29,252 nt of DNA from NCBI GenBank assembly GCA_017535125.1, contig JAFXUS010000021.1, positions 1 to 29,252 on the forward strand, in the 5' to 3' direction. The notes beneath the pieces were generated by a model. The model made no database searches. It saw only the letters and a list, made by a program, of their open reading frames with translations, and was not told the origin of the DNA. The translations under genes and the position numbers were made by a program. The stretch is from Bacteroidales bacterium (lineage in GTDB: Bacteria > Bacteroidota > Bacteroidia > Bacteroidales > UBA932). Shown here in pieces: positions 5,375 through 29,252 of the stretch (the first letter of the stretch is position 1; every line of letters starts with the position of its first letter).

Positions 5375-6184
5375 TTATTCCTTCGGGAAAGTTTCGACTT
5401 CTCTGGCGGTGAGGCCGACGGAGGAGAAGCCGCCGTCATGGTAGAGATTCTGCATCGTGACCTTGCGGGTGTAGTCCGAGAACAGGGTGACGATGTAGTC
5501 GGCGCAGTCGTCGGCCGTGGCGTTGCCCAGCGGCGACATGCGGTCGGCGTACTTCAGCATTTCCTCCATGCCGGCGATCCCCTGTCCCGCGGTCGTCGCG
5601 GTCGGCGACTGGGACACGGTATTCACGCGCACGTGCTTTGCCTGGCCATAGATGGCGCCGAAGCTGCGGGTGATCGACTGCAGGAGCGCCTTGGCGTCCG
5701 CCATGTCGTTGTAGCCCACGAAGGTGCGCTCGGCGGCGATGTAGGTCAGCGCCACCACGGAACCCCATTCCTTCAGCGCATCCTTTTCATAAAGGGTATG
5801 CAGCAGCTTGTGGAACGAGAGCGCGGAAATGTCCAGGGTCTTGGACATGAAATTGTAGTCCAGCGCCTCGTAGGGACGGCCCTTGCGCACGTTCGGCGAC
5901 ATGCCGATGGAGTGCAGCACGAAGTCGAAGGGGCCGCCGAAGTGCTCCATCGCGCCGTCCACCAGCGCGCCGAGGTCCTCGAGCGAGGTGGCGTCGGCGG
6001 CGATCAGCTTGCAGCCGTGCGCTTCGGCGAATGAATTCAGGGTGCCCATCCGGAGCGACAGCTCCGTGTTGGTGAGCACGATCTCGGCGCCCTCGGCGAT
6101 GGCGCGCTCGGCCACCTTCCAGGCGATCGACTTGTCATTGAGGGCACCGGTGATGATGCCTTTCTTTCCTTTCAGCAGTTCCAT
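5375..6184 (-). CDS. fabI: Enoyl-[acyl-carrier-protein] reductase FabI
   Basis: A 269-residue NAD(P)H-dependent reductase that catalyses the last step of each fatty-acid elongation cycle, reducing trans-2-enoyl-ACP. It is a short-chain dehydrogenase/reductase fold protein with an N-terminal glycine-rich segment (KKGIITGALNDKSIAWKVAE, residues 7-26) and the FabI-specific catalytic pair Tyr158-x6-Lys165 in YNDMADAKALLQS. The HSIGMSPNVRKGRPYEALDY segment (91-110) is of the Bacteroidota FabI type. The FabI Tyr-x6-Lys spacing separates it from FabG-like reductases (Tyr-x3-Lys). Its ATG shares one base with the fabZ stop (TAATG), so translation is coupled. It is the last gene of the operon, followed by the repeat and the terminator. 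Confidence 0.95.
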   Translation of the reverse strand: MELLKGKKGIITGALNDKSIAWKVAERAIAEGAEIVLTNTELSLRMGTLNSFAEAHGCKLIAADATSLEDLGALVDGAMEHFGGPFDFVLHSIGMSPNVRKGRPYEALDYNFMSKTLDISALSFHKLLHTLYEKDALKEWGSVVALTYIAAERTFVGYNDMADAKALLQSITRSFGAIYGQAKHVRVNTVSQSPTATTAGQGIAGMEEMLKYADRMSPLGNATADDCADYIVTLFSDYTRKVTMQNLYHDGGFSSVGLTAREVETFPKE

Positions 6185-6615
6185 TATTTCTTCAGGTCTT
6201 TAGAATCCATCAGATAGAAAGTGAGTTCACCCTTGCAGGCGAGCTGCCCTTCCACACGGGCCTCGGCCTCGATGATGAAGAGCGGGCCGCGGGTGGCCTT
6301 CATGCGGGCGCTGGTCTCGATGGTGTCGCCGGGGCGCACCATGCGCTTGAAGCGGACCTTGTCCAGGCCGCCGTAGAACGGCGTATGGCCCACGAGGTCC
6401 TCGCCGAGGAGCAGAGTGCAGGACTGCGCCATGATTTCGCAGATCACCACGCCCGGCACCACCGGGAAATCCGGGAAATGGCCCTTCAGGAACCATTCTT
6501 CGCCGGTCACATTGTAGGTTGCGCGGATGCTGCCGTCTTCCTGTTTTTCGGTCCAGTCCACCAGCAGCATCGGCTCGCGGTGCGGAAGGAGTTTCTTGAT
6601 TTCTTCTCTGTTCAT
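6184..6615 (-). CDS. fabZ: 3-hydroxyacyl-ACP dehydratase, FabZ family
   Basis: A 143-residue hot-dog-fold dehydratase that converts 3-hydroxyacyl-ACP to enoyl-ACP. The N-terminus has LLPHREPMLLVD (residues 9-20). The catalytic His46 lies in KGHFPDFPVVPGV and the catalytic Glu60 in VICEIMAQS. Length is that of free-standing FabZ. In Bacteroidetes the housekeeping FabZ is usually fused to LpxC (known for the group). This unfused copy inside a synthetase-fabF-fabI operon may therefore be an additional dehydratase; that is an inference, since the rest of the genome is not visible. It lies 16 bases downstream of fabF. Confidence 0.92.
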   Translation of the reverse strand: MNREEIKKLLPHREPMLLVDWTEKQEDGSIRATYNVTGEEWFLKGHFPDFPVVPGVVICEIMAQSCTLLLGEDLVGHTPFYGGLDKVRFKRMVRPGDTIETSARMKATRGPLFIIEAEARVEGQLACKGELTFYLMDSKDLKK

Positions 6616-6631
6616 GTTATCTGGTCAGGTT

Positions 6632-7876
6632 TTAGATCTTACGGAGGGCGACGCTGGCGTCATGGCCGCCGAAGCCCAGGGAATTGGAAACGGCCACGCG
6701 GACCGGGCGCTTCACCGCCTCCAGCGGCGTGTAGTCCAAGTCGCAGGCCGGATCGGGATGGATGAGGCCGATGGTCGGCGGAATGATGCCGTCGCGCAGC
6801 GCCAGCGCGGAGGCCAGCAGTTCCACGGCGCCGGCGGCACCGATCATGTGGCCGGTCATCGACTTGGTGCTGCTGATCGACGCGCGGTGCGCATCCGTCT
6901 CGCCGAGGGCGAGCTTGATGGCCGCCGTCTCCGCCGAATCATTGAGCTGCGTACCCGTACCGTGCGCGTTGATGTAGAGGTCCTCGCCGGACTGGTAGCC
7001 GGACTGGACCAGCGCGTCGCGGATGGCCCGGGAGGCCGGAACGCCGTCCGGGCGCGGCGCCGTGGCGTGATGCGCGTCGCAGTAATTGCCGTAACCAGTC
7101 ACCTCCGCGAGGATATTCGCCCCGCGTTCGCGGGCATGGTTGTATTCTTCGAGAACGAGCATCGCGGCACCCTCCGCCATCACGAACCCGCCGCGGTCTG
7201 CGCTGAACGGCAGCGAGGCGCGGAGCGGATCGGCGGCGAGCGTCAGGGCGTGCGCGCTGACGAATCCGCCGAAGGCCAGCGGGTTGAGTACCGCCTCCGT
7301 GCCGCCCGCGATAATCGCGTCGGCAAAGCCGAACTTGACTGTGCGGAAGGCCTCGCCGACGGACTGCGTGCTGGATGCGCACGCGGCCGCCGTGGTGAGG
7401 TTCGCGCCCTGGGCGCCATAGCGGATGGCGATGTTGCCCGCGGCGATGTTGCCGATCATCTTGGGGATGAACAGCGGGGAAATGCGGTCCTCGCCCTCCT
7501 CGAGCAGCACGGTCGTCTGCTCGATGAAGGTCTGCATGCCGCCGATGCCGGTGCCCACATAGACGCCGAGCCGCTCGGGCGCGACGTTCGTACCGGCCTC
7601 CAGGCCGCTCTCCTCCATCGCCTGCGCGGCCGCCGCCTGCGCAAACAGGCAGAAGCGGTCGTTTCGCTTCGTATCCTTGACGCTCACGCCGTAGGCGGTC
7701 GCGTCGAAATCCTGCACCGTGCCAGCCACCTTGACCGGCAGTTTCCATTCCCCCGACAGGGGGTACGGACGGATGCCGCAGCGGCCCGCCTGCAGGGCGG
7801 ACCAGAAGGCTGCGGTGCCGTTTCCGACCGGCGAAATGACGCCGGTTCCGGTTATCACTACTCTCCTTTCTTCCAT
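6632..7876 (-). CDS. fabF: 3-oxoacyl-ACP synthase II (KAS II)
   Basis: A 414-residue condensing enzyme that extends acyl-ACP with malonyl-ACP. The Cys-His-His triad is complete: Cys166 in TTAAACASSTQ, His305 in INAHGTGTQ and His343 in SMTGHMIGAAG, with Lys338 just before. The N-terminus (RRVVITGTGVISPVGNG) and C-terminus (SNSLGFGGHDASVALRK) are those of FabF/FabB. Its ATG shares a base with the stop of the upstream synthetase gene (TAATG). In many Bacteroidetes the main fabF sits next to acpP and rnc (known), and neither is here. This may be a second KAS dedicated to the product of this operon. Confidence 0.93.
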   Translation of the reverse strand: MEERRVVITGTGVISPVGNGTAAFWSALQAGRCGIRPYPLSGEWKLPVKVAGTVQDFDATAYGVSVKDTKRNDRFCLFAQAAAAQAMEESGLEAGTNVAPERLGVYVGTGIGGMQTFIEQTTVLLEEGEDRISPLFIPKMIGNIAAGNIAIRYGAQGANLTTAAACASSTQSVGEAFRTVKFGFADAIIAGGTEAVLNPLAFGGFVSAHALTLAADPLRASLPFSADRGGFVMAEGAAMLVLEEYNHARERGANILAEVTGYGNYCDAHHATAPRPDGVPASRAIRDALVQSGYQSGEDLYINAHGTGTQLNDSAETAAIKLALGETDAHRASISSTKSMTGHMIGAAGAVELLASALALRDGIIPPTIGLIHPDPACDLDYTPLEAVKRPVRVAVSNSLGFGGHDASVALRKI

Positions 7877-9528
7877 TATTTGTACATAAATCGGCGGATG
7901 CTGCCCTTCGGCGTCTTCGCGAACGGTTCGAAGCGGAGTTCGTAGTCGTTGACGGCGGAGTAGCCGGGCAGTTTATTGTTCAGGGCCACCAGGTTCTGAC
8001 GCATGATGGCGTCGAGGCCGTCGGCGCCGAGTCCCGCCTTGTCGAGCGCGTCCATGTTCGGCACGATCAGGGCCACGATCTTGTGTTCGCGCTGGAGCAC
8101 GATGGATTCCGCCACATAAGGCAACTCGTTGAGAATCACCTCGATCTCCTCGGGATAGACATTCTGTCCGTTCTCGGCGAGAATCATGTTCTTGCAGCGA
8201 CCCAGCAGGAAGACGTTGCGGTTCTCATCCACGGTGCCGATGTCGCCGGTGCGGAACCAGCCGTCCTGCAGCACCTCGGCCGTAGCATCGGGATTCTTGT
8301 AATAGCCCTTGAAGACGACGTCGCCCTTGACGGACAGCTCGCCGGCAATGTGCTGCGGATCCGGAGAATCGATGCGGATCTCCATGATCTCGGGCAGGTA
8401 TTCGCCGCAGGACTTCGGGATGTATTTGCCCACCTTGCCGTAGGACACGATCGGGGCGAGCTCGGTCAGGCCGTAGCCCGTGATGAACGGGACCTTGAGC
8501 TTGTAAACCAGCAGGGCCTCGACTTCGGACGGGATGGCGGAACCGCCGGTGGCGAACACCTCGATGTTGCCGCCCATGGAGGCCATCAGCTTGTCGTGCA
8601 GCATCTGGCAGTAGTCTGCATTATTCTCATAGTCAGCCAGTTTCGCCTTGCCCTCCGGGCTGTTGATCTCGGCGCCGAGCACATACTCGGCGAATTTCAC
8701 GAAGATGAGCGGCACGCCGTAGAAGATGCGCGGGCGCACCTCCACCAGGGCCTCCTGGACGTTCTTCGGAATCGGCGGCAAGCCGAGCACGGTCACATGC
8801 ATGCCCATGGTCATCGGGATGACCACGTCGCAGGTCAGGCCGAAGCTGTGGGCGTGCGGCAGCAGGCTCAGATAGTTCTCGCCCTCGTGGAACGGGAAGC
8901 CCGGGCGGATGCCCTGGACGTTGGCCGTATAGTTGCGGTAGGTCAGCATCACGCCCTTGGGATTGCCGGTGGAGCCGGACGTGTAGAGGATGGCGCAGAC
9001 CTCGTCGAGGTCGGGATGGATGACCTGGAAGTCGGCCGGCTGCATGCCGGCGGGATAGCGCTCCGAGAGCAGTTTCGCGCCGGCGGCATAGATCTCGCCC
9101 ACGCCGTTTCGGCTGGCGAGCACCTCGCCGGTGGCGGAATCGATGGCGCAGAGGACCTCGGGCATCTGCTGGAAATCCATCGCGTCGAAGGTCCGCTTCT
9201 CCGTGTAGAGAATCTTGCTGTCGGAATGGTTGACCAGCCGCTGCGTATCGGCCGGAGTGAAGGCGTTATAGAGATGGACGGCCACGTAGCCCTTGCTGAC
9301 CGCCGCCATGAAGACGGAGGCACCGAGGGCGCAGCTCTTGGTGTTGATGGCTATCTTGTCGCCCGGCTTCAGGCCGGCTTTCTTCCAGATCAGGTCCAGG
9401 GTTTCGATCCGCTCCGCGAGCTCACGGTAAGTGATGGTGGACTTGCGGAAGTCGCTCAGCGCGGGACGCTCCCAGCTGTTGCGGACGGCGCCTTCGAAAA
9501 GGCTGATGAAGTTGTCGATTTTGATCAT
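7876..9528 (-). CDS. AMP-binding long-chain acyl-CoA/acyl-ACP synthetase (paralogue 1)
   Basis: A 550-residue ANL-superfamily adenylate-forming enzyme that should activate a fatty acid as acyl-AMP and pass it to CoA or ACP. The phosphate-binding motif YTSGSTGNPKG is at residues 182-192, followed by a GYGLTELAP (A5) motif, DGWFRTGDIG (A7) and GRCKNMILAENGQNVYPEEIE (A8 hinge region). The tail is KTPKGSIRRFMYK. It shows a serine where many relatives have the lysine preceding the Ile, while a lysine lies two residues earlier. It is the promoter-proximal gene of synthetase-fabF-fabZ-fabI, which suggests that exogenous or recycled acyl chains enter FAS-II here. CoA versus ACP as acceptor cannot be decided. 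A clear paralogue is at 16335-17981. Confidence 0.88.
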   Translation of the reverse strand: MIKIDNFISLFEGAVRNSWERPALSDFRKSTITYRELAERIETLDLIWKKAGLKPGDKIAINTKSCALGASVFMAAVSKGYVAVHLYNAFTPADTQRLVNHSDSKILYTEKRTFDAMDFQQMPEVLCAIDSATGEVLASRNGVGEIYAAGAKLLSERYPAGMQPADFQVIHPDLDEVCAILYTSGSTGNPKGVMLTYRNYTANVQGIRPGFPFHEGENYLSLLPHAHSFGLTCDVVIPMTMGMHVTVLGLPPIPKNVQEALVEVRPRIFYGVPLIFVKFAEYVLGAEINSPEGKAKLADYENNADYCQMLHDKLMASMGGNIEVFATGGSAIPSEVEALLVYKLKVPFITGYGLTELAPIVSYGKVGKYIPKSCGEYLPEIMEIRIDSPDPQHIAGELSVKGDVVFKGYYKNPDATAEVLQDGWFRTGDIGTVDENRNVFLLGRCKNMILAENGQNVYPEEIEVILNELPYVAESIVLQREHKIVALIVPNMDALDKAGLGADGLDAIMRQNLVALNNKLPGYSAVNDYELRFEPFAKTPKGSIRRFMYK

Positions 9529-9661
9529 TTTTCAGTTGTTTTCAAAAACCGGCTGCGAAGATACCCCGAAAAAAACGCTTCCGAAAACGGCAGCACGGAC
9601 TTTGTGGTCAATTCCGCCGCCATTGTGGACAAATGCCGCCTGCGGGGGCGAAATGACGGTG

Positions 9662-9693
9662 CAAAGTTACTTTCACCCGCGCGGACGAACAAA
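9662..9693 (-). promoter_or_regulatory. Promoter of the synthetase-fabF-fabZ-fabI operon
   Basis: On the minus strand TTTG (9693-9690) is followed after 20 bp by TAACTTTG (9669-9662), an exact match to the TAnnTTTG -7 consensus. Transcription would start near 9655 and leave a leader of about 125 bases before the synthetase ATG at 9528. I see no recognisable riboswitch or attenuator in that leader. Confidence 0.75.
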
Positions 9694-9730
9694 TAATAGA
9701 AACCAGCGGGCGAAAAAAGTGACGAAACAA

Positions 9731-9760
9731 TTGTTTTGCGGGAAAAAGGCCGTATCTTTG
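9731..9760 (+). promoter_or_regulatory. Promoter of LytTR regulator 1 and manC
   Basis: TTG at 9731-9733, a 19-bp spacer, then TATCTTTG at 9753-9760, an exact match to the Bacteroidetes consensus. Start near 9766, leader about 60 bases. A GTGAC motif lies just upstream at 9719-9723. The 298-base spacer 9529-9826 holds this promoter and the opposite-strand promoter, with no other gene visible. Confidence 0.78.
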
Positions 9761-9826
9761 GGACGAATTCCAGCGCACCGATGCTTCGTCCCTGACGCTG
9801 AAACAGAATGAAAAATACGATTGACT

Positions 9827-10630
9827 ATGAACTCCAGACTCCGCATCGGCAAAAGCTATCTGTCGCAACTGCTGTACATTCTGCTGATTCCGGCTTTCTT
9901 CGTCGGGTTCTGCTTCCTGTACGATCCCTTCGGCATGAAGGACTACTATCAGGTAGGCGGCATGGGCTTCGGTTTCCATTTCATCATCCTGGCCACCATC
10001 CTGATGGCCATCCTGGCCCTCACCCGACTGATATTCAACGCGCTATACAAACACATCCCGTTCAAGTGGTGGCACTACATGATCTGGTGCGTCGGAGAAG
10101 TATTCGTGTTCTCCTTCTTCATGGCCATGTACACGACCTTGTTCTATAACGGGCAGTACAGCTATTTCGTCGTCCTGTCCCTCTGTTTCAAGTTCGCGTA
10201 CCTGATCCTGGTCTATCCGTACCTCTTCCTGGTGCTCATCCAGATCATCCTCAACAAGGAAACGGACCTCAACGCCGAGCCGGTCGAGACCCTCGTGAAG
10301 TTCTACGACGAGCACAAGCGGCTCAAGCTCACCATCGACCCGGCGGCCGTCATCTGCATCCAGGCCGACGCCAACTACGTGATCATCCGCTACATGGACG
10401 CCGACCGCGTCAAGGAGTTCATGCTCCGGGCCTCCATGAAGAGCGTGGAGAACACCGTCGCCAACCACGGGCTGATCCGCTGCCACCGCTCCTATTTCGT
10501 CAATCCCAAGTTCGTCAAGCTCCTGCGCAAGAACCGGGAAGGCATGATTTCGGCCGAGCTGCTGCACCCCGAGGTGCCGTCCATCCCGGTCAGCAAACAG
10601 TTCTACAAGCAACTTTCAGAGCTTCTGTAA
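9827..10630 (+). CDS. Membrane-anchored LytTR-family transcription regulator (paralogue 1)
   Basis: A 267-residue protein with about four hydrophobic segments (roughly residues 13-33, 49-70, 85-104 and 113-142) and a C-terminal LytTR DNA-binding domain (about 165-267). The LytTR hallmarks are ICIQADANYVIIRY (177-188) and RCHRSYFVNP (218-227). There is no receiver or kinase domain, so the signal is either sensed in the membrane part or passed on by a partner. The ATG at 9827 is preferred over a TTG two codons upstream. It is transcribed divergently from the fatty-acid operon and is 4 bases upstream of manC, with which it must be co-transcribed. The protein at 25580-26365 has the same architecture. 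The target genes are not shown by the sequence; the divergent operon is a natural candidate. Confidence 0.85.
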   Translation: MNSRLRIGKSYLSQLLYILLIPAFFVGFCFLYDPFGMKDYYQVGGMGFGFHFIILATILMAILALTRLIFNALYKHIPFKWWHYMIWCVGEVFVFSFFMAMYTTLFYNGQYSYFVVLSLCFKFAYLILVYPYLFLVLIQIILNKETDLNAEPVETLVKFYDEHKRLKLTIDPAAVICIQADANYVIIRYMDADRVKEFMLRASMKSVENTVANHGLIRCHRSYFVNPKFVKLLRKNREGMISAELLHPEVPSIPVSKQFYKQLSELL

Positions 10631-13383: not shown

Positions 13384-15387
13384 ATGAGAACCAGACTCTT
13401 CCTTGCAGCCGCCTGCCTGCTGCTCCCCTTTTGCCTTGCGGCCGCGCCGCGCCATTATGAACTCCGTTCGCCCGACGGGCGTCTCTGCGTGGGCATCGAC
13501 GCCACGCCGGAGCTCCGCTACGCCCTCTCTTATGACGGCGTCGCCGTCCTCGCCCCCTCCGCGGTGGAGCTGGCGCTGGTCGATGCGCCCGACTACGACG
13601 CCTCGGCACGCTTCGAGAAGGCCATCCGCAGTTCCGTGGACGCGACCATCCCCGCGCCCGTGTACAAGCGCGCGCAGGTGCGCGACCATTACAACCAGCT
13701 GATACTCAGATACAAGACCTTCGACCTCGTGTTCCGCGCCTACGACGCAGGCATGGCCTGGCGCTTCGTCTCGCGCAGCAAGAAACCCTTCCTCGTCGAG
13801 GACGAGACGGCCGAATTCCGCTTCGCGGAAGACGTCGAGGCCACGGTCCCCTACGTCAAGCCGGACTCCCCGCGCGACCCCTTCCTCAACAGCTTCGAGG
13901 CCTACTACGACATCCACCCGCTGAGCGCGTGGAAAGAGGACCAGAAGGCCTTCCTGCCTGTCGGCTTCAAGCTGCGGAACGGCTGGCGGGTCAACATCAC
14001 CGAATCCGACCTGCTGGACTACCCCGGCATGTACCTCGAGCATGACGGCGGCACCGCCGTCAAAGGCCTCTATCCGCCCTACCCCAAGCTCATCGAGCAG
14101 GACGGCTACAACAAGCTGCAGGGCATCGTCCGCACCACGGAGGATTACATCGCCAAGCAGCCCGCCGGCGCTTCCCTGCCCTGGCGCATCGTCGCCGTGG
14201 CCACGGACGACAGTCAGCTGCTCGACAGCGACCTTGTATGGCTCCTGAGCCGCCCGGCTGCCGATATCGACTGGAGCTGGGTCAAGCCCGGCAAGGTGGC
14301 CTGGGACTGGTGGAACGACTGGAACATCACCGGCGTTCCCTTCCGCGCCGGCGTCAACACCGAGACCTATAAGTATTATATCGATTTCGCCGCGGCCCAC
14401 GGCATCGAATACGTGATCCTGGACGAGGGCTGGTCCGTCAACCTCAAGGCCGACCTCTTCCAGATCGTCCCCGCCATCGACATGAAGGCCATCGTGGACC
14501 ATGCCAACGCCAAGGGCGTGGGCATCATCCTCTGGGCGGGCTACTGGGCCATGCAGCGCGATATCGAGGGTATCTGCCGCCACTACGCCGCCATGGGCGT
14601 CAAGGGCTTCAAGATCGATTTCATGAACCGCGACGACCAGCTCATGGTGGACTTCTACACCGAGGTGGCCGAGACCGCGGCCCGCTACCACCTGCTCGTC
14701 GATTTCCACGGCGCCTTCAAGCCCTGCGGCCTGCAGCGCCCCTACCCGAACGTCATCAACCACGAGGGCGTGGCCGGCCTGGAGCAGATGAAATGGGCGC
14801 AGCCCTCGGTGGACCAGGTCACCTACGACGTCCAGATCCCCTTCCTGCGCATGTTCGCCGGCCCGATGGATTACACGCAGGGCGCCATGCACAACAGCAC
14901 GCGCCGCAGTTACCGCCCCGTCAACTCCGAGCCGATGAGCCAGGGCACGCGCTGCCGCCAGCTGGCGGAATACGTCATCTTCGAGGCGCCGCTGACGATG
15001 CTCTGCGACAGCCCGACCAACTACCTCGCCGAGCCGGAATGCCTGAAATGGATGGCGGCCGTGCCGACCGTCTGGGACGAGACGGTAGCGCTGGGCGGGC
15101 GCGTGGGCGACTACGCGGCCATCGCCCGCCGCAAGGGCGGCGACTGGTACGTGGGCGCGATGACCGATTGGGACGCCCGCGAGCTGGAGATCGACCTGGC
15201 GCGTTTCCTGCCGGAAGGCAGCTACAGCGTGGAAATTTTCCGCGACGGCATCAACGCCGACCGCAACGCGCGTGACTACGCGCGTGAAATGAAGACCGTC
15301 ACCGTCAGCGCCGCAGCGCACACGATGACGGTCCACATGGCCCCCGGCGGAGGCTGGACGGCGAAATTTACTTTGATAAACGACTGA
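13384..15387 (+). CDS. GH97 glycosidase, probably a retaining alpha-galactosidase
   Basis: A 667-residue secreted or periplasmic glycoside hydrolase of family 97. A signal peptide (MRTRLFLAAACLLLPFCLAA) is followed by the N-terminal beta-sandwich, the catalytic barrel (about 290-570) and a C-terminal beta-domain. WDWWNDWN (307-314), YVILDEGW (343-350), GFKIDFMNRDDQ (408-419) and NHEGVAGLE (459-467) are family signatures. GH97 has inverting alpha-glucosidases (SusB type) and retaining alpha-galactosidases. The Asp in KIDFM (Asp412) and Glu467 are 55 residues apart, the same spacing as the nucleophile and acid/base pair I recall for the retaining B. thetaiotaomicron enzyme (415 and 470). I therefore favour alpha-galactosidase. 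The 3' end overlaps the convergent HAD gene by 20 bases. No SusC/D genes are nearby. Confidence 0.9.
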   Translation: MRTRLFLAAACLLLPFCLAAAPRHYELRSPDGRLCVGIDATPELRYALSYDGVAVLAPSAVELALVDAPDYDASARFEKAIRSSVDATIPAPVYKRAQVRDHYNQLILRYKTFDLVFRAYDAGMAWRFVSRSKKPFLVEDETAEFRFAEDVEATVPYVKPDSPRDPFLNSFEAYYDIHPLSAWKEDQKAFLPVGFKLRNGWRVNITESDLLDYPGMYLEHDGGTAVKGLYPPYPKLIEQDGYNKLQGIVRTTEDYIAKQPAGASLPWRIVAVATDDSQLLDSDLVWLLSRPAADIDWSWVKPGKVAWDWWNDWNITGVPFRAGVNTETYKYYIDFAAAHGIEYVILDEGWSVNLKADLFQIVPAIDMKAIVDHANAKGVGIILWAGYWAMQRDIEGICRHYAAMGVKGFKIDFMNRDDQLMVDFYTEVAETAARYHLLVDFHGAFKPCGLQRPYPNVINHEGVAGLEQMKWAQPSVDQVTYDVQIPFLRMFAGPMDYTQGAMHNSTRRSYRPVNSEPMSQGTRCRQLAEYVIFEAPLTMLCDSPTNYLAEPECLKWMAAVPTVWDETVALGGRVGDYAAIARRKGGDWYVGAMTDWDARELEIDLARFLPEGSYSVEIFRDGINADRNARDYAREMKTVTVSAAAHTMTVHMAPGGGWTAKFTLIND

Positions 15388-21449: not shown

Positions 21450-22433
21450 TTATTCCCATTCGATGGTTCCCGTCGGCTTCGGGGTCAGGTCGTAGAGCAC
21501 ACGGTTAACGCCCGGAACCTCGGTCACGATGCGCTGCGTGATGTGGTGCAGGAGCTTATAGGGGATCTCTTCGATGGTGGCGGTCATGGCGTCGCGGGTA
21601 TTGACGGCACGGATAATCACCGGCCAGTCCCAGCTGCGCTTGCCTTCCTTGACGCCCGTGGACTTATAGTCGGGCACCACGGTGAAATACTGCCACACCT
21701 TGCCCTCCAGGCCGTTTTTCGCGAACTCCTCGCGCAGGATGGCGTCACTCTCGCGCAGCGCCTCGAGGCGGTCGCGCGTGATGGCGCCGGTGCAGCGCAC
21801 ACCCAGGCCGGGGCCGGGGAACGGCTGGCGGAACACCATGTTGTCAGGCAGCCCCAGCTCCTTGCCAACCACGCGGACTTCGTCCTTGAAGAGCAGCTTG
21901 ATGGGCTCCACGAGCTCGAACTGCAGGTCCTCGGGCAGACCGCCCACGTTGTGGTGCGACTTGACGGGACCGGACTCGATGATGTCCGGATAAATGGTGC
22001 CCTGCGCCAAGAAGCTGATGCCGTCCAGCTTGCGCGCCTCCTCCTCGAACACGCGGATGAACTCCGCGCCGATGATCTTGCGCTTCTGCTCGGGATCGGC
22101 GACGCCGGCCAGCTTGTCCAGGAAACGGTCGACCGCGTCGACATAGACCAGGTTGGCGTTCAGCTCGTCGCGGAACACGCGCACCACCTGCTCGGGCTCG
22201 CCCTTGCGCAGGAGGCCGTGGTTGACGTGGACGGACACCAGCTGCTTGCCGACGGCCTTGATCAGCAGCGCGGCCACCACCGACGAATCGACGCCGCCGG
22301 ACAGCGCCAGCAGCACCTTCTTGTCACCGATCTGGGCGCGGAGCTCCTTAATCTGTTCTTCAATGAATTTCTGGGCCAGCGCCGGAGTCGTGATGCGCTC
22401 CATATTCGCCGGGCGGACGTTACCTGTTGCCAT
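21450..22433 (-). CDS. Stand-alone GMP synthase ATP-pyrophosphatase subunit (second guaA, lacks glutaminase domain)
   Basis: A 327-residue protein matching only the C-terminal two-thirds of GuaA. The PP-loop SGGVDSSV is at 45-52, followed by [64 protein letters not shown] and [10 protein letters not shown]. The C-terminal dimerisation domain ends in [16 protein letters not shown]. It has no GATase domain, and the start is placed just before the PPase domain, 20 bases after the stop of the full-length guaA. It has diverged strongly from its neighbour. It lacks an insertion next to IES and is shorter in the dimerisation domain, so it is not a recent copy. Split GMP synthetases (GuaAa/GuaAb) are known in archaea, but here a complete GuaA is adjacent. 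It may use ammonia, borrow the neighbour's glutaminase, or act on another nucleotide. Confidence 0.88.
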
Positions 22434-25579: not shown

Positions 25580-26365
25580 CTACAACTTCTGCGCAATCTC
25601 GTGATAGACGCGCTTGGAGATGGGCAGGACGGTCCCGGGAACGTCCAGCTCCGCGCTGAACGCATCGTCGCGGTCGCGGCGCAGGGCCACGATGTGCGAA
25701 GGATTCACGAAGTAGGAACGGTGGCAGCGGTAGAAGCCGTAATGCTCCAGCAGCGGGGAGATGGCACGCATCGTCGAGCGCATCGCGTAATCCTTCACGT
25801 TGCCGTTGTCCAGGTAGAAGATCCGGACGTAATTCTCCTGCGCCTTTACATATAATATGGCATCCTTGAGCAGGACCAGGCGGACCTGGCGGCTGCCGTC
25901 CGCAAAGCGAACCAGATCCCGCTCACGCGCCGGCGTCTGGTACGCGGCGACGAGCGCGCACACGCCCGTGACAGCCAGATAGGGAAAGATCAGCACCAGA
26001 AAGCTGTATTCCAGGCAGCGCGGAAGCCAGCGGAAATACGGGATGGAGGAATCCATCAGATAGAGGTAGAGCGCCAGGAAATAGGTGATCACCGTCAGCT
26101 CCAGGGCGCACCAGGCGAACAGCTGCCACCAGCTTCGGTTGACGAGATTGCCGAGCAGGTAGCGGAGCGTCCGGGACAGCAGCAGGGTGACGAGGATGAT
26201 GCACATCATCATCGTGACGTTGAAGATGAACAGCGAGCGCCCCATGTCCAGATCCGTCTCGCTGTGGAAAGGCTGCCAGACCACCATGAAGACAAAGAAG
26301 AAAAAAGGGATGTGGAAGATATACCAGAGCTCGTTGGTATAGCGACGGAACAGGTTCGGAAGCAT
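25580..26365 (-). CDS. Membrane-anchored LytTR-family transcription regulator (paralogue 2)
   Basis: A 261-residue protein with four hydrophobic segments (about residues 14-31, 44-63, 82-104 and 117-142) and a LytTR DNA-binding domain (about 158-261) marked by ILYVKAQENYVRIFYL (170-185) and RCHRSYFVNP (213-222). No receiver domain is present. It has the architecture of the regulator at 9827-10630. It is transcribed away from the condensation-like gene at 26525. Its minus-strand -7 box TATATTTG (26438-26431) shares bases with a GTCAC motif, and other GTCAC/GTGAC motifs fall in its leader. This is what autoregulation would look like. The nearest plausible targets are the two paralogous promoters of the locus to its right. 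Confidence 0.86.
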   Translation of the reverse strand: MLPNLFRRYTNELWYIFHIPFFFFVFMVVWQPFHSETDLDMGRSLFIFNVTMMMCIILVTLLLSRTLRYLLGNLVNRSWWQLFAWCALELTVITYFLALYLYLMDSSIPYFRWLPRCLEYSFLVLIFPYLAVTGVCALVAAYQTPARERDLVRFADGSRQVRLVLLKDAILYVKAQENYVRIFYLDNGNVKDYAMRSTMRAISPLLEHYGFYRCHRSYFVNPSHIVALRRDRDDAFSAELDVPGTVLPISKRVYHEIAQKL

Positions 26366-26377
26366 ACTTACATCATG

Positions 26378-26507
26378 TGTGACAAAAAAAACAGGCGGCA
26401 GATTCTGTCACAATACACACTGCGCCGTCACAAATATAGCATTTATATCAAAAAACGCGATTATTCAACCCGAAATTAATCCCGTATTTCCCGATTTGGT
26501 AACTTTG
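26378..26507. promoter_or_regulatory. Regulatory module X: GTCAC-type motif array with divergent promoters
   Basis: Contains TGTGAC (26378-26383), TGTCACA (26406-26412), GTCACAAATA (26427-26436) and ATCAA (26447-26451). The last three start 20 bp apart (26407, 26427, 26447). The plus-strand -7 box TAACTTTG (26500-26507) starts 73 bp after the second GTCAC. The LytTR gene's -7 box (26438-26431) overlaps that motif. Module Y at 27871-28001 repeats the arrangement. Direct repeats at about two helical turns are what LytTR dimers are known to bind. Confidence 0.65.
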
Positions 26508-26524
26508 CACCGAAAAATCTCGCC

Positions 26525-27868
26525 ATGAACCTCTACCATTTTACTTATTCGCAGGATGTCATCCGGCTGCAAAGCAAATACGCGCTCTTCAAGCGAGTCC
26601 TGAACATCCTTTTCACCCTCACCTTCGACGAGGGATTCGACGAGACACTGATGAGACAGGCGTTCGAAAAACTCTATGAGCGCAACGACTGCCTCAGGCT
26701 CCGCTTCGTCAAGCAGGGCAAGGAGACGATGCAATATTTTGAGCCGGAGCGCAAGCCCGGCGAGATCCCTTCCCTGCACTTCAAGACGAACGGACAGTAC
26801 GAAGCCTTTTTCCGCCGCTTCCGGCGCAAGCCCACCGATCTTGCCAAGGGCGACGCCCTCCGCGTAGTCTTCGCCGTGAATCCGGAAGGCAAGCAGATGG
26901 TGATCTGCAAAATCAGCCATTATTCCGCCGACACCTACGGCATTGGCATCCTGGCGAACGACCTGATGGTCATCTATACCGCCCTGCGCGACGGAAAGGA
27001 ACTTCCGCCCGCGCCCGGCAGCTTCGAAGACATCATCCGCAAAGACAACGAATATCGGCTGGATACCGCCGCGACGGAGCGGGACCGGGCATATCTCCAT
27101 GATTATTTCTTCAAGATTCACCCCGACCATCCCGTCTATTGCGGCACGCACGGCAACAAGAACGACCGCTGGCTCAAATGCAAGCGAAAGGGAAAATTCT
27201 CCATCCCCATGTTGATGGTCCGCTGCGACACCTACCCATTCCAGTTCGCGGTACCGGCCGCCGTCACCCTCCGGGCGGAAGAATGGTGCAAGGAACACGA
27301 CATCTCCCTGAACACCCTGTTCTTCATGGGATTCACGCTCACGCTCTCCCTGCTCAATGATCGTGAAACGCGGCTGTGCAACGTGGAAATCCTCAACTGT
27401 CGCGGCTCCCTGGCAGACCGCAGGACCGCCGGCACCAAGGCGCAGGGCATGGCCGTCTGCACCGAGATCGACTACGGAAAGGGCTTCCTCGCCAATACGA
27501 CCGTCCTGTCGGAGGAGCAGAAGGAGCTCTACCGCCACACCCGCCTCAGCTACCTGGAAGGCGAGATCATGCAGCACGAATCCTGGAAATTCTCCATGCT
27601 CGACATGCTCAACAGCTCCGGATTCTCCTATATCCCCTTCGCCTCCCACGAGGGCGTCCGGCTCGAACTCCAAAGCAACGGCAAGGGCGCGCTGATCACC
27701 TACGTGGCCCTGATGCACGATCTTACGAACAATGAGATCTTCGTCAACTACGACGTCCAGAAGCTGCGGGTCACGCCCAAGCAGCTCACCGACTTCCAAA
27801 ACCGCTACCTTCGCGTCATGGAGACCGTGCTGGCGGATTCCGAGACGCCGCTGGAACAGCTTTTCTAG
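26525..27868 (+). CDS. Stand-alone condensation-domain-like acyltransferase (copy 1)
   Basis: A 447-residue protein that I place in the condensation/chloramphenicol-acetyltransferase-fold superfamily. Its N-terminal half resembles the entry lobe of an NRPS C domain, with FDETLMRQAFEKLYERNDCLRLRF leading in (residues about 38-61). The motif ISHYSADTYG follows at 130-139. In it His132 and Asp136 occupy the second-His and Asp positions of HHxxxDG, with the first His replaced by Ser and the Gly by Thr. The DFGWG motif is not evident. There is no signal peptide, adenylation or carrier domain. It would join an acyl or aminoacyl group to an acceptor, but the substrates are unknown. Its promoter is module X, shared divergently with the LytTR regulator. 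A related protein starts at 28861. Confidence 0.72.
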   Translation: MNLYHFTYSQDVIRLQSKYALFKRVLNILFTLTFDEGFDETLMRQAFEKLYERNDCLRLRFVKQGKETMQYFEPERKPGEIPSLHFKTNGQYEAFFRRFRRKPTDLAKGDALRVVFAVNPEGKQMVICKISHYSADTYGIGILANDLMVIYTALRDGKELPPAPGSFEDIIRKDNEYRLDTAATERDRAYLHDYFFKIHPDHPVYCGTHGNKNDRWLKCKRKGKFSIPMLMVRCDTYPFQFAVPAAVTLRAEEWCKEHDISLNTLFFMGFTLTLSLLNDRETRLCNVEILNCRGSLADRRTAGTKAQGMAVCTEIDYGKGFLANTTVLSEEQKELYRHTRLSYLEGEIMQHESWKFSMLDMLNSSGFSYIPFASHEGVRLELQSNGKGALITYVALMHDLTNNEIFVNYDVQKLRVTPKQLTDFQNRYLRVMETVLADSETPLEQLF

Positions 27869-27870
27869 CG

Positions 27871-28001
27871 TGTGACGAAAATATCCGGAAGGCAAATTCC
27901 GTCACTAAACGGGAATTACGGTCACAAATACAAAGTATTTGTCAAAACGTCATAATATTCGGCACGATATTAGTCACGTATTTCCCGAATTAGTAAATTT
28001 G
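27871..28001 (+). promoter_or_regulatory. Regulatory module Y, a diverged duplicate of module X
   Basis: TGTGAC (27871-27876), GTCAC (27901-27905), GTCACAAATA (27921-27930) and GTCAA (27941-27945) lie 20 bp apart for the last three. The -7 box TAAATTTG (27994-28001) starts 73 bp after the second GTCAC, exactly as in module X. Gap-free alignment of 27921-28004 with 26427-26510 gives about 60 of 84 matches by hand count, including CGTATTTCCCGA in both. The start would be near 28007, almost at the ATG of the next gene (28010). The leader is therefore extremely short, or translation begins at a later ATG. Confidence 0.65.
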
Positions 28002-28009
28002 CATGATTT

Positions 28010-28858
28010 ATGATTAAGACATTACTCCTGATTCCCCTGCTTGTCCTGCAGTTCCAATCTGTGGACAAGTCTTTTGCAGACAGCGATTACCGTGCTTGTG
28101 AGCAGTCCCTGCTGCAGATGCTCCCGCAAGCCGAAAATGGCGCCGAGAAGGCCTCCGTGCTATGGCGTCTCGCCCGGGTGAACTACATGCTGGGCGACGC
28201 CCAGAAGGAGAAACTCGCCCGCCGCGAACGCTTCAACCAGGGCATCGCCTATGCCGAACAGGGAATTAAAGAGAATTCCCGCGACGCCCAGTGCTACATG
28301 TGGCATTGCGCCAATACGGGCGGCGAGTGCCAGACGCATTCCCTCATGGAGCAGGCAAAGGCCGTCCCCGCGATGACGAAGGACCTGACCAAGATCCTCA
28401 ACGGGTTGAACCCCCGCATGTCCGAGGCCTGGCAGGCCCTCTCGGAGATGTACTACCACCACCCCATGAAGTCCAACGACAGCGCGATCAACTTCGCCCG
28501 CACGGCCGCGTCGAACGCACCGGCCGGCGAACCCCGCGTCACGACCTTCCTGTATGTCGCCAACCTGCTGTACGAGCGCAACTGGAGCGCGGACAAGCGC
28601 GCCGCCCAGATCGCCGACCACAAGGCCAAGCTGGAGAAGATGAACGGCAGCACTAATATCGACCGCTTCGCCCTCTCCGACGGCATGCAGCAGGCCCGTC
28701 CCTGGACGTCCAAAGCCCTCGGCGAACTGTCCGACCGCGAGGAAGCGCTGGCGCTGGCCGAATACGCCGTGCTGCGCTACCGCGCCTGCCAGGATCCCGC
28801 CGCCGTCGAGCGCCGGGACTTCCAGACCCTCCAACAATGGATGCAAAAACACAAATGA
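28010..28858 (+). CDS. Secreted TPR-like protein of the condensation-like locus
   Basis: A 282-residue protein with an N-terminal hydrophobic signal (MIKTLLLIPLLVLQFQSVDK) and no lipobox Cys, so it is probably periplasmic. The rest is helical and repeat-like: ASVLWRLARVNYMLGDAQ, RFNQGIAYAEQGIKENSRDA, SEAWQALSEMYYHHP and NFARTAASNAPAGEP resemble TPR units. The first two with QCYMWHCANTGGE recall the RMD/TRAP-T-component type of TPR protein. It is driven by module Y. The following condensation-like gene starts at the stop codon (ATGA overlap if 28855 is used), so the two are an operon. A role as scaffold or partner of that locus is inferred from position only. Confidence 0.72.
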   Translation: MIKTLLLIPLLVLQFQSVDKSFADSDYRACEQSLLQMLPQAENGAEKASVLWRLARVNYMLGDAQKEKLARRERFNQGIAYAEQGIKENSRDAQCYMWHCANTGGECQTHSLMEQAKAVPAMTKDLTKILNGLNPRMSEAWQALSEMYYHHPMKSNDSAINFARTAASNAPAGEPRVTTFLYVANLLYERNWSADKRAAQIADHKAKLEKMNGSTNIDRFALSDGMQQARPWTSKALGELSDREEALALAEYAVLRYRACQDPAAVERRDFQTLQQWMQKHK

Positions 28859-28860
28859 TA

Positions 28861-29252
28861 ATGGAACCTAAACGTTATTCATTCAATTACTCGCAGGACA
28901 TCATTCACCTGCAGACCAAGTACGCGCTGTTCAAGCGGGTCGCCAACATCCTTTTCTCCGTCACCTTCGATAACGGATTCGACGAAGGGCGCATGCTTGA
29001 CGCCCTCCAGCTGCTCATCGACCGCAACGACTGCCTCCGCCTGACCTTCGTCAAGGAAGGCAAGCAGATGCGCCAGTTCTTCGAGCCGGCACGCAAGCTG
29101 GGCAAGGTCCCGACCGTCCGCTTCGAGACCACGGCACAGATGGAGGCCTGGATCCGCCGCTTCCGCCGCAAGGGCCTGGACATGACGAAAGGCCAGACCT
29201 TCAAGGCAGTCTTCGCCGTCAACGCCTCCGGCGAGCAGATGGTCTTCATCAA
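28861..29252 (+). CDS. Condensation-domain-like acyltransferase (copy 2, cut by window edge)
   Basis: The first 130 codons of a second condensation-like protein. The frame runs open off the window. YSQDIIHLQTKYALFKRVAN near the N-terminus, RNDCLRLTFVKEGKQ, QFFEPARKLGKVP, RRFRRKG and FKAVFAVNASGEQMVFI line up without large gaps with copy 1, and more than half of the positions look identical by eye. The sequence ends a few residues before the expected HHxxxDG-type motif, so catalytic competence cannot be judged. The start could also be the ATG at 28855, which overlaps the previous stop as ATGA and adds two residues. Confidence 0.75.
   Translation, partial: MEPKRYSFNYSQDIIHLQTKYALFKRVANILFSVTFDNGFDEGRMLDALQLLIDRNDCLRLTFVKEGKQMRQFFEPARKLGKVPTVRFETTAQMEAWIRRFRRKGLDMTKGQTFKAVFAVNASGEQMVFI

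Follow-up and report, generated by a model that had tools for sequence, protein, structure and literature searches.

The right-hand end of a 29,252-nucleotide stretch of Bacteroidales DNA (contig JAFXUS010000021.1, forward strand; the whole stretch is referred to as the window) carries a locus at 25580..29252 in which a membrane LytTR regulator lies divergent from genes for two condensation (C) proteins, C1 and C2, and a tetratricopeptide repeat (TPR)-like protein. In related loci the set is completed by two further proteins, an acyl-adenylating ligase that is free-standing (A) and an acyl carrier protein (ACP). Rather than a wholly new system, the locus appears to be a variant, in Bacteroidales and with new partners, of the amide synthases built from stand-alone A, ACP and C. 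The features are as follows.

25580..26365, minus strand: LytTR membrane regulator, 261 aa, PF04397 at the C-terminal end (E 8.5e-16), divergent from the operon
26407..26432, plus strand: operator-like repeat, GTCACA at 26407 and 26427 (20 bp spacing), with a weaker third copy at about 26447
26500..26507, plus strand: promoter-like TAACTTTG, which fits TAnnTTTG
26525..27868, plus strand: C1, stand-alone condensation-domain protein, 447 aa, motif SHYSADT (PF00668, E 8e-23)
27870..28003, plus strand: second promoter/operator copy, with GTCACT at 27901, GTCACA at 27921, GTCAAA at 27941 and TAAATTTG at 27994-28001
28010..28858, plus strand: exported TPR-like protein, 282 aa (family A2, 18 sequences)
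28861..29252, plus strand: C2, second condensation protein, cut by the window edge, initial 130 residues (PF00668, E 1.2e-8)

A preliminary description made from the DNA letters had placed four genes here, namely a divergent LytTR gene, C1, a TPR-like gene and C2 running off the edge; all four were recovered by position, and LytTR, C1 and C2 also by Pfam. The same gene set was returned by a codon-usage gene call that was trained in part on these very genes, with guaB-guaA to the left of the locus. The start of C2 is most likely the ATG at 28861, directly after the TPR stop codon, which we preferred over 28837. The C2 piece shows 93% identity to C2 of the nearest related locus, L001, and 94% to the first 130 residues of P0044 (449 aa). 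Relative to L001, the ratios of nonsynonymous to synonymous substitution rates (dN/dS) were 0.12 for C1, 0.15 for LytTR, 0.35 for TPR and 0.11 for the C2 piece; with values of 0.11-0.35, the window genes are under purifying selection.

We compared 24 related loci, comprising L001-L004 (all from Bacteroidales; one originates from yak omasum, the other three from RUG metagenome genomes), 13 loci from genomes of the family and seven from genomes of the genus. The genes for TPR, C and A were contiguous on one strand in all 24, and ACP directly followed A in 22; the contigs of the other two, L048 and L049, end inside A. The gene order in L001 was C1-TPR-C2-A-ACP, matching the window as far as the window reaches, that in L002 was TPR-C1-C2-A-ACP, and the remaining 22 loci each contained a single C gene. 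A divergent LytTR gene was present in 13 of the 24 loci, and L027-L032 and L048-L052, some of them on short contigs, contained the cassette without a detected divergent LytTR gene. The earlier proposal of a small trans-acting condensation system with partners to the right is thus borne out in the relatives (A in 24/24, ACP in 22/24), and the neighbourhood survey it had suggested found the order conserved in Bacteroidales. Its other option, carrier-independent acylation, is disfavoured by the ACP that follows A wherever the contig does not end inside A.

The C1 motif reads S131-H132-Y-S-A-D136-T, and H132 and D136 were invariant in all 21 aligned proteins (C1 included). Ser occupies the first motif position except in two of the 21, which have Cys there; among the 25 rows of the tree set, 21 carry Thr directly after Asp. 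The S-His132-YSA-Asp136 reading of the 447-aa protein in the preliminary description was therefore correct; its term 'degenerate' applies to the first His and the Gly, which are changed, and not to the catalytic second His and the Asp, which are kept. The first-His and Gly positions also vary in stand-alone fatty-acid-amide (FAA) C domains, a family that conserves the second His and Asp but varies at the position following Asp (PMC13142362, cited throughout for the available part of its text). With 447 aa and a PF00668 domain, C1 falls in the 300-520 aa range used to recognise stand-alone C proteins of the FAA type. C1 does not show the combination by which a canonical nonribosomal peptide synthetase (NRPS) C domain is recognised, HHxxxDG together with carrier domains in one chain.

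As evident from the searches, the closest solved structure to C1 is 12KH, which is OaaC according to the data statement of PMC13142362, with an E-value of 4.1e-19 for C1 and 5.1e-31 for the C profile. The profile scored 110.9 bits against 12KH, which it covered nearly end to end (positions 25-448), and 68.5 bits against the next match. By hhalign, the Bacteroidales C set matched the OaaC set with E 4.6e-28 across 438 columns, compared with 3.3e-14 for six canonical HHxxxDG domains and 0.0035 for seven HHxxxDH domains; these groups comprise 13 of the 16 canonical rows, and the other three were included in one-against-one phmmer comparisons, in which the OaaC set was the top match outside the Bacteroidales set for 25 of 25 rows. 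In a tree that covered 16 of 17 canonical C pieces (one was dropped as too short) and left aside the 127 published FAA domains, the Bacteroidales C proteins and the OaaC set were separated from the canonical domains with support of 100/99. Because the profile and pairwise comparisons favour OaaC and the tree has long branches, we propose more firmly that these proteins would work like OaaC than that they belong to the FAA clade.

Pfam was tested on L001 and L002; in L002, A matched PF00501 (1.1e-54) and ACP matched PF00550 (2.4e-13). In both A proteins scanned, the long-chain-fatty-acid-CoA ligase model scored highest (199.6 and 206.4 bits), compared with 109.6 and 140.5 bits for the amino-acid adenylation model, all family-model scores being below the curated cut-offs. 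The LFTSGTTGANK-type and YGITECGP motifs were retained in 16/16 aligned A copies and the ACP Ser in 17/17 aligned copies, in an alignment that left out the split A of L001 and the seven genus-genome loci. Amino-acid A domains carry FDxS at a position where 15 of the 16 A copies have an HHATE-type sequence (HHGIE in L028); an amino-acid-type A domain is disfavoured by this sequence and by the model scores. A phosphopantetheinyl transferase (PF01648) was present in 4/4 genomes, and PF00668 had no match outside the cassette in those four genomes, the completeness of which is not stated.

The C proteins fall into two lineages beside closely related A proteins. In the C tree, the C1 proteins (window, L001, L002) and the only C of L003 and of L004 grouped with L025/L026 (100/99), and C2 grouped with L020 (99/97). 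In the A tree, L002-L004 were placed, weakly, with L020/L027 (87/93), and L003 and L004 have a C1-type gene beside an A that is 94% identical to that of L002. This pattern fits C genes that may have been gained, exchanged or differentially lost beside a stable A. Synonymous divergence (dS) between L002 and L003 was 0.70 for C1, 0.26 for A, 0.39 for TPR, 0.46 for ACP and 0.82 for LytTR; as a test of C exchange this is not clean and gives mixed support, since LytTR is also far apart and C1 does not stand alone. Two old C lineages next to closely related A genes suggest that the choice of acceptor may be exchangeable, and the C protein would set the amine because selectivity is reported for OaaC (PMC13142362, introduction).

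A profile built from the 18 TPR proteins of these loci matched 15 of 299 family genomes at E 1e-8, namely all 14 genomes with a C match and G602, in which the TPR match lies at a contig end (C142:3-449) and is the only one without a C match. Because of this coincidence, the TPR protein is a fixed partner of the cassette within the family sampled. Against Pfam, the protein itself gave nothing significant (best 0.091), and its N-terminus shows a short hydrophobic stretch, with clearer signal peptides, judged by eye, in some remote members. The only solved match of the profile under 1e-3 was the TPR domain of RMDN3/PTPIP51 (7cc7), at 3.6e-5 and over 87 of 281 positions; this domain is reported to show phospholipid binding and transfer in vitro (PMC9239997). 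The Pfam family RMD1-3 reached 26.1 bits in L027, with a cut-off of 26.7, and appeared at E up to 1 in five of the 18 members. We regard this possible likeness to RMDN3 as a lead and not as membership.

The LytTR regulator has four hydrophobic, transmembrane-like stretches. LytTR domains bind direct repeats about two helical turns apart, and upstream of the operon GTCACA occurs twice, 20 bp apart, in the window and in L001-L004 (exact pattern). With up to one mismatch, the pattern, which was picked after the alignment had been viewed, matched the window three times, with two overlapping matches inside the 27870..28003 array; 0.10 were expected, and none of 100 shuffles had at least three. A direct-repeat scan with a minimum length of 8 found none in either promoter taken alone. 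Upstream regions of the window and of 11 loci were aligned; in all 12, TAnnTTTG, which we take to be the Bacteroidetes -7 promoter element, was seen by eye before the first gene, and they also have AAATATA in common. The 27870..28003 region is 72% identical over 83 nt to 26427-26509. Since a second, diverged promoter copy thus lies between C1 and TPR, C1 probably arrived ahead of TPR and brought its promoter along, or else a copy of the promoter was made; L001 has a C1-TPR gap of 15 nt and lacks a second promoter/operator copy.

Another LytTR gene of the window, at 9827, had no match to the GTCACA pattern before it, and a 10-nt direct repeat with 21 bp spacing was observed there at 9602-9632. 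This second membrane LytTR regulator is 31% identical to the first and lies divergent from a fatty-acid-synthesis-like set on the minus strand (5375-10630) consisting of an enoyl reductase, a FabA/FabZ-like dehydratase, a ketoacyl synthase and an AMP-ligase, a layout that resembles the cassette.

The C family was carried by 14 of 299 family genomes (including G001, the genome of L001), nine of 101 genus genomes (including G001 and G002) and one of 393 genomes in the order sample. A phylum-wide spread was not seen, the cassette C being found in G001 alone among 395 Bacteroidota genomes; five others gave weak C matches only, within frames of 1348 to 2198 aa or 1346 aa. The phylum, order, family and genus samples overlap. 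Among 17 loci compared, guaB and purD flanked the cassette in L001-L004 only, and the neighbours listed at the other loci look different; the cassette therefore probably sits at several genomic places. Neighbours were located by tblastn with named queries, which further conserved neighbours could escape.

Additional genes were observed near some loci. In L025 (5624-6328) and L026 (5150-5854), a phospholipase A1-like gene follows ACP on the same strand (PF02253 1.4e-19 in L026); it could supply fatty acids, and the other 22 loci gave no match for it. In all of L001-L004, the opposite strand between ACP and purD encodes a membrane protein of the sodium/bile-acid symporter family (PF01758, above the cut-off in L001 and slightly below it in L002), and this gene was unmatched in the other 20 loci. 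Beside a full guaA, the window also contains a second gene for GMP synthase (21450-22403) that comprises only the ATPase and C-terminal part; this partial gene is also present in L001 and was not seen in L002-L004.

Taken as a whole, we consider it reasonably likely that the locus forms the left-hand portion of a compact NRPS-like operon making fatty-acid amides (N-acyl amines). A and ACP would follow beyond the window edge, as in the relatives; with ATP, A would activate its carboxylic acid substrate, which is most likely a fatty acid, and load it onto the phosphopantetheine arm of ACP, and a stand-alone C protein, through His132 in C1, would transfer the acyl group onto a small free amine to give an N-acyl amide. 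Drawing on a single A-ACP supply, C1 and C2 would probably differ in the amine, or else in the acyl group, that they serve. Outside the cytoplasm, the exported TPR protein may handle the lipid product or substrate, and the membrane LytTR protein may sense a signal and is predicted to control the operon via the GTCACA repeats, with one array before C1 and another before TPR-C2. A more far-reaching version, which we think unlikely in its entirety, is a Bacteroidales lipid-amide signalling system in which A-ACP stays, C is gained, doubled or swapped to change the amine, a periplasmic RMDN3-like TPR protein carries the amide outward and the membrane LytTR protein exerts control, possibly in an autoinducer loop.

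Several points weigh against the fatty-acid amide interpretation. The first motif residue is Ser rather than the Asp/His of FAA C domains, and the residue after Asp, mostly Thr, is outside the frequent residues named for the FAA set (PMC13142362). Identity to the OaaC set is just about 21%. At 2.7-3.0 changes per column, the tree branches are very long and could have produced the deep grouping artefactually, and the Bacteroidales C proteins form a single clade apart from OaaC with support of only 76/89. The best solved match of A was 2-succinylbenzoate-CoA ligase (1.1e-29), slightly above FadD5 (6.1e-28). In the nearest relative, L001, the A gene (13588-15302) is split over two frames and lacks about 11 residues, and intact 581-residue relatives exist in the protein database. 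The window itself ends inside C2, before A and ACP. Beyond the directly observed gene content and order, co-occurrence, conserved catalytic residues, OaaC kinship and repeats, we infer the substrates, the product, the regulation, the role of the TPR protein and the A and ACP of the window organism.

These points leave room for other explanations. The acceptor could be an alcohol or a large or surface molecule, such as a lipid head group, a glycan or an envelope component, so that the system would be an acyl-ACP-dependent O- or N-acyltransferase with TPR as an envelope factor. PapA-type relatives of C domains do form esters, and the TPR gene, whose product looks exported, is tied to the cassette in 14/14 C-positive family genomes; we nevertheless give this explanation a small chance, as the closest characterised kin, OaaC, forms amides from free small amines (PMC13142362) and neither a transporter nor a glycosyl enzyme is among the four conserved genes, in a comparison that did not systematically extend to wider neighbours. 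It seems quite unlikely that A loads an aryl or other non-fatty acid, which C would join to a polyamine or another amine to give a siderophore- or signal-like amide. The VibE/VibB/VibH layout also consists of stand-alone A, carrier and C, and the succinylbenzoate-CoA ligase match of A would agree with it, but the kinship of C to OaaC and the long-chain fatty-acid ligase as best family model for A point away from it. Finally, the C proteins might be non-catalytic and bind acyl-ACP for regulation or sensing, the A-ACP pair acting as a fatty acid sensor. The replaced first motif residue and Gly and the membrane regulator adjoining the cassette in 13/24 loci are in line with this; we consider it very improbable given that the catalytic His and Asp are invariant in 21/21 proteins and that OaaC is active despite its changed motif (PMC13142362).

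We did not find the locus described in the open-licence literature searched. Such loci may already have been catalogued under a general label, because a rumen survey counts many Bacteroidota NRPS clusters, 934 of them in Bacteroidaceae (PMC8241843, available part). With its four genes, the locus offers a clean test set.

Compared with known systems, the C domains of PvdL and ObiF1 are the second-best solved matches of the C profile; unlike the proteins described here, they are domains within large multidomain synthetases, and the canonical domains examined have HHxxxDG or HHxxxDH. VibH, VibE and VibB of vibriobactin synthesis are likewise a free-standing C, A and carrier with a free amine acceptor, in an aryl acid and siderophore setting, and we know of no TPR or LytTR partner for them. 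The RMDN3/PTPIP51 TPR domain is eukaryotic and matched the TPR protein only partially. The preliminary description did not recognise the gene set as a described system; this no longer holds for its core, since C-A-ACP resembles OaaA/OaaACP/OaaC, a gut-Clostridia pathway (Coprococcus eutactus; PMC13142362, citing Chang 2021) in which OaaC joins ACP-bound fatty acids to small free amines. In both, stand-alone A, ACP and C are encoded together with one carrier per cassette, C belongs to the same family, and the catalytic His and Asp are kept while the first and last motif residues are changed. They differ in phylum, in sequence (about 21% identity) and in motif (SHxxADT here, (D/H)HxxxDS there), and the Bacteroidales loci add a TPR partner, a LytTR regulator and repeats, with two C proteins in the window, L001 and L002; the Clostridia cluster is described as three proteins, with TPR unmentioned in the available part of PMC13142362. 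Host receptors are targets of the fatty-acid amides that gut Clostridia make (PMC13142362). If our interpretation is true, a second gut phylum has a similar core with a new partner, a regulator and C-gene exchange, which would extend this chemistry to rumen-type Bacteroidales.

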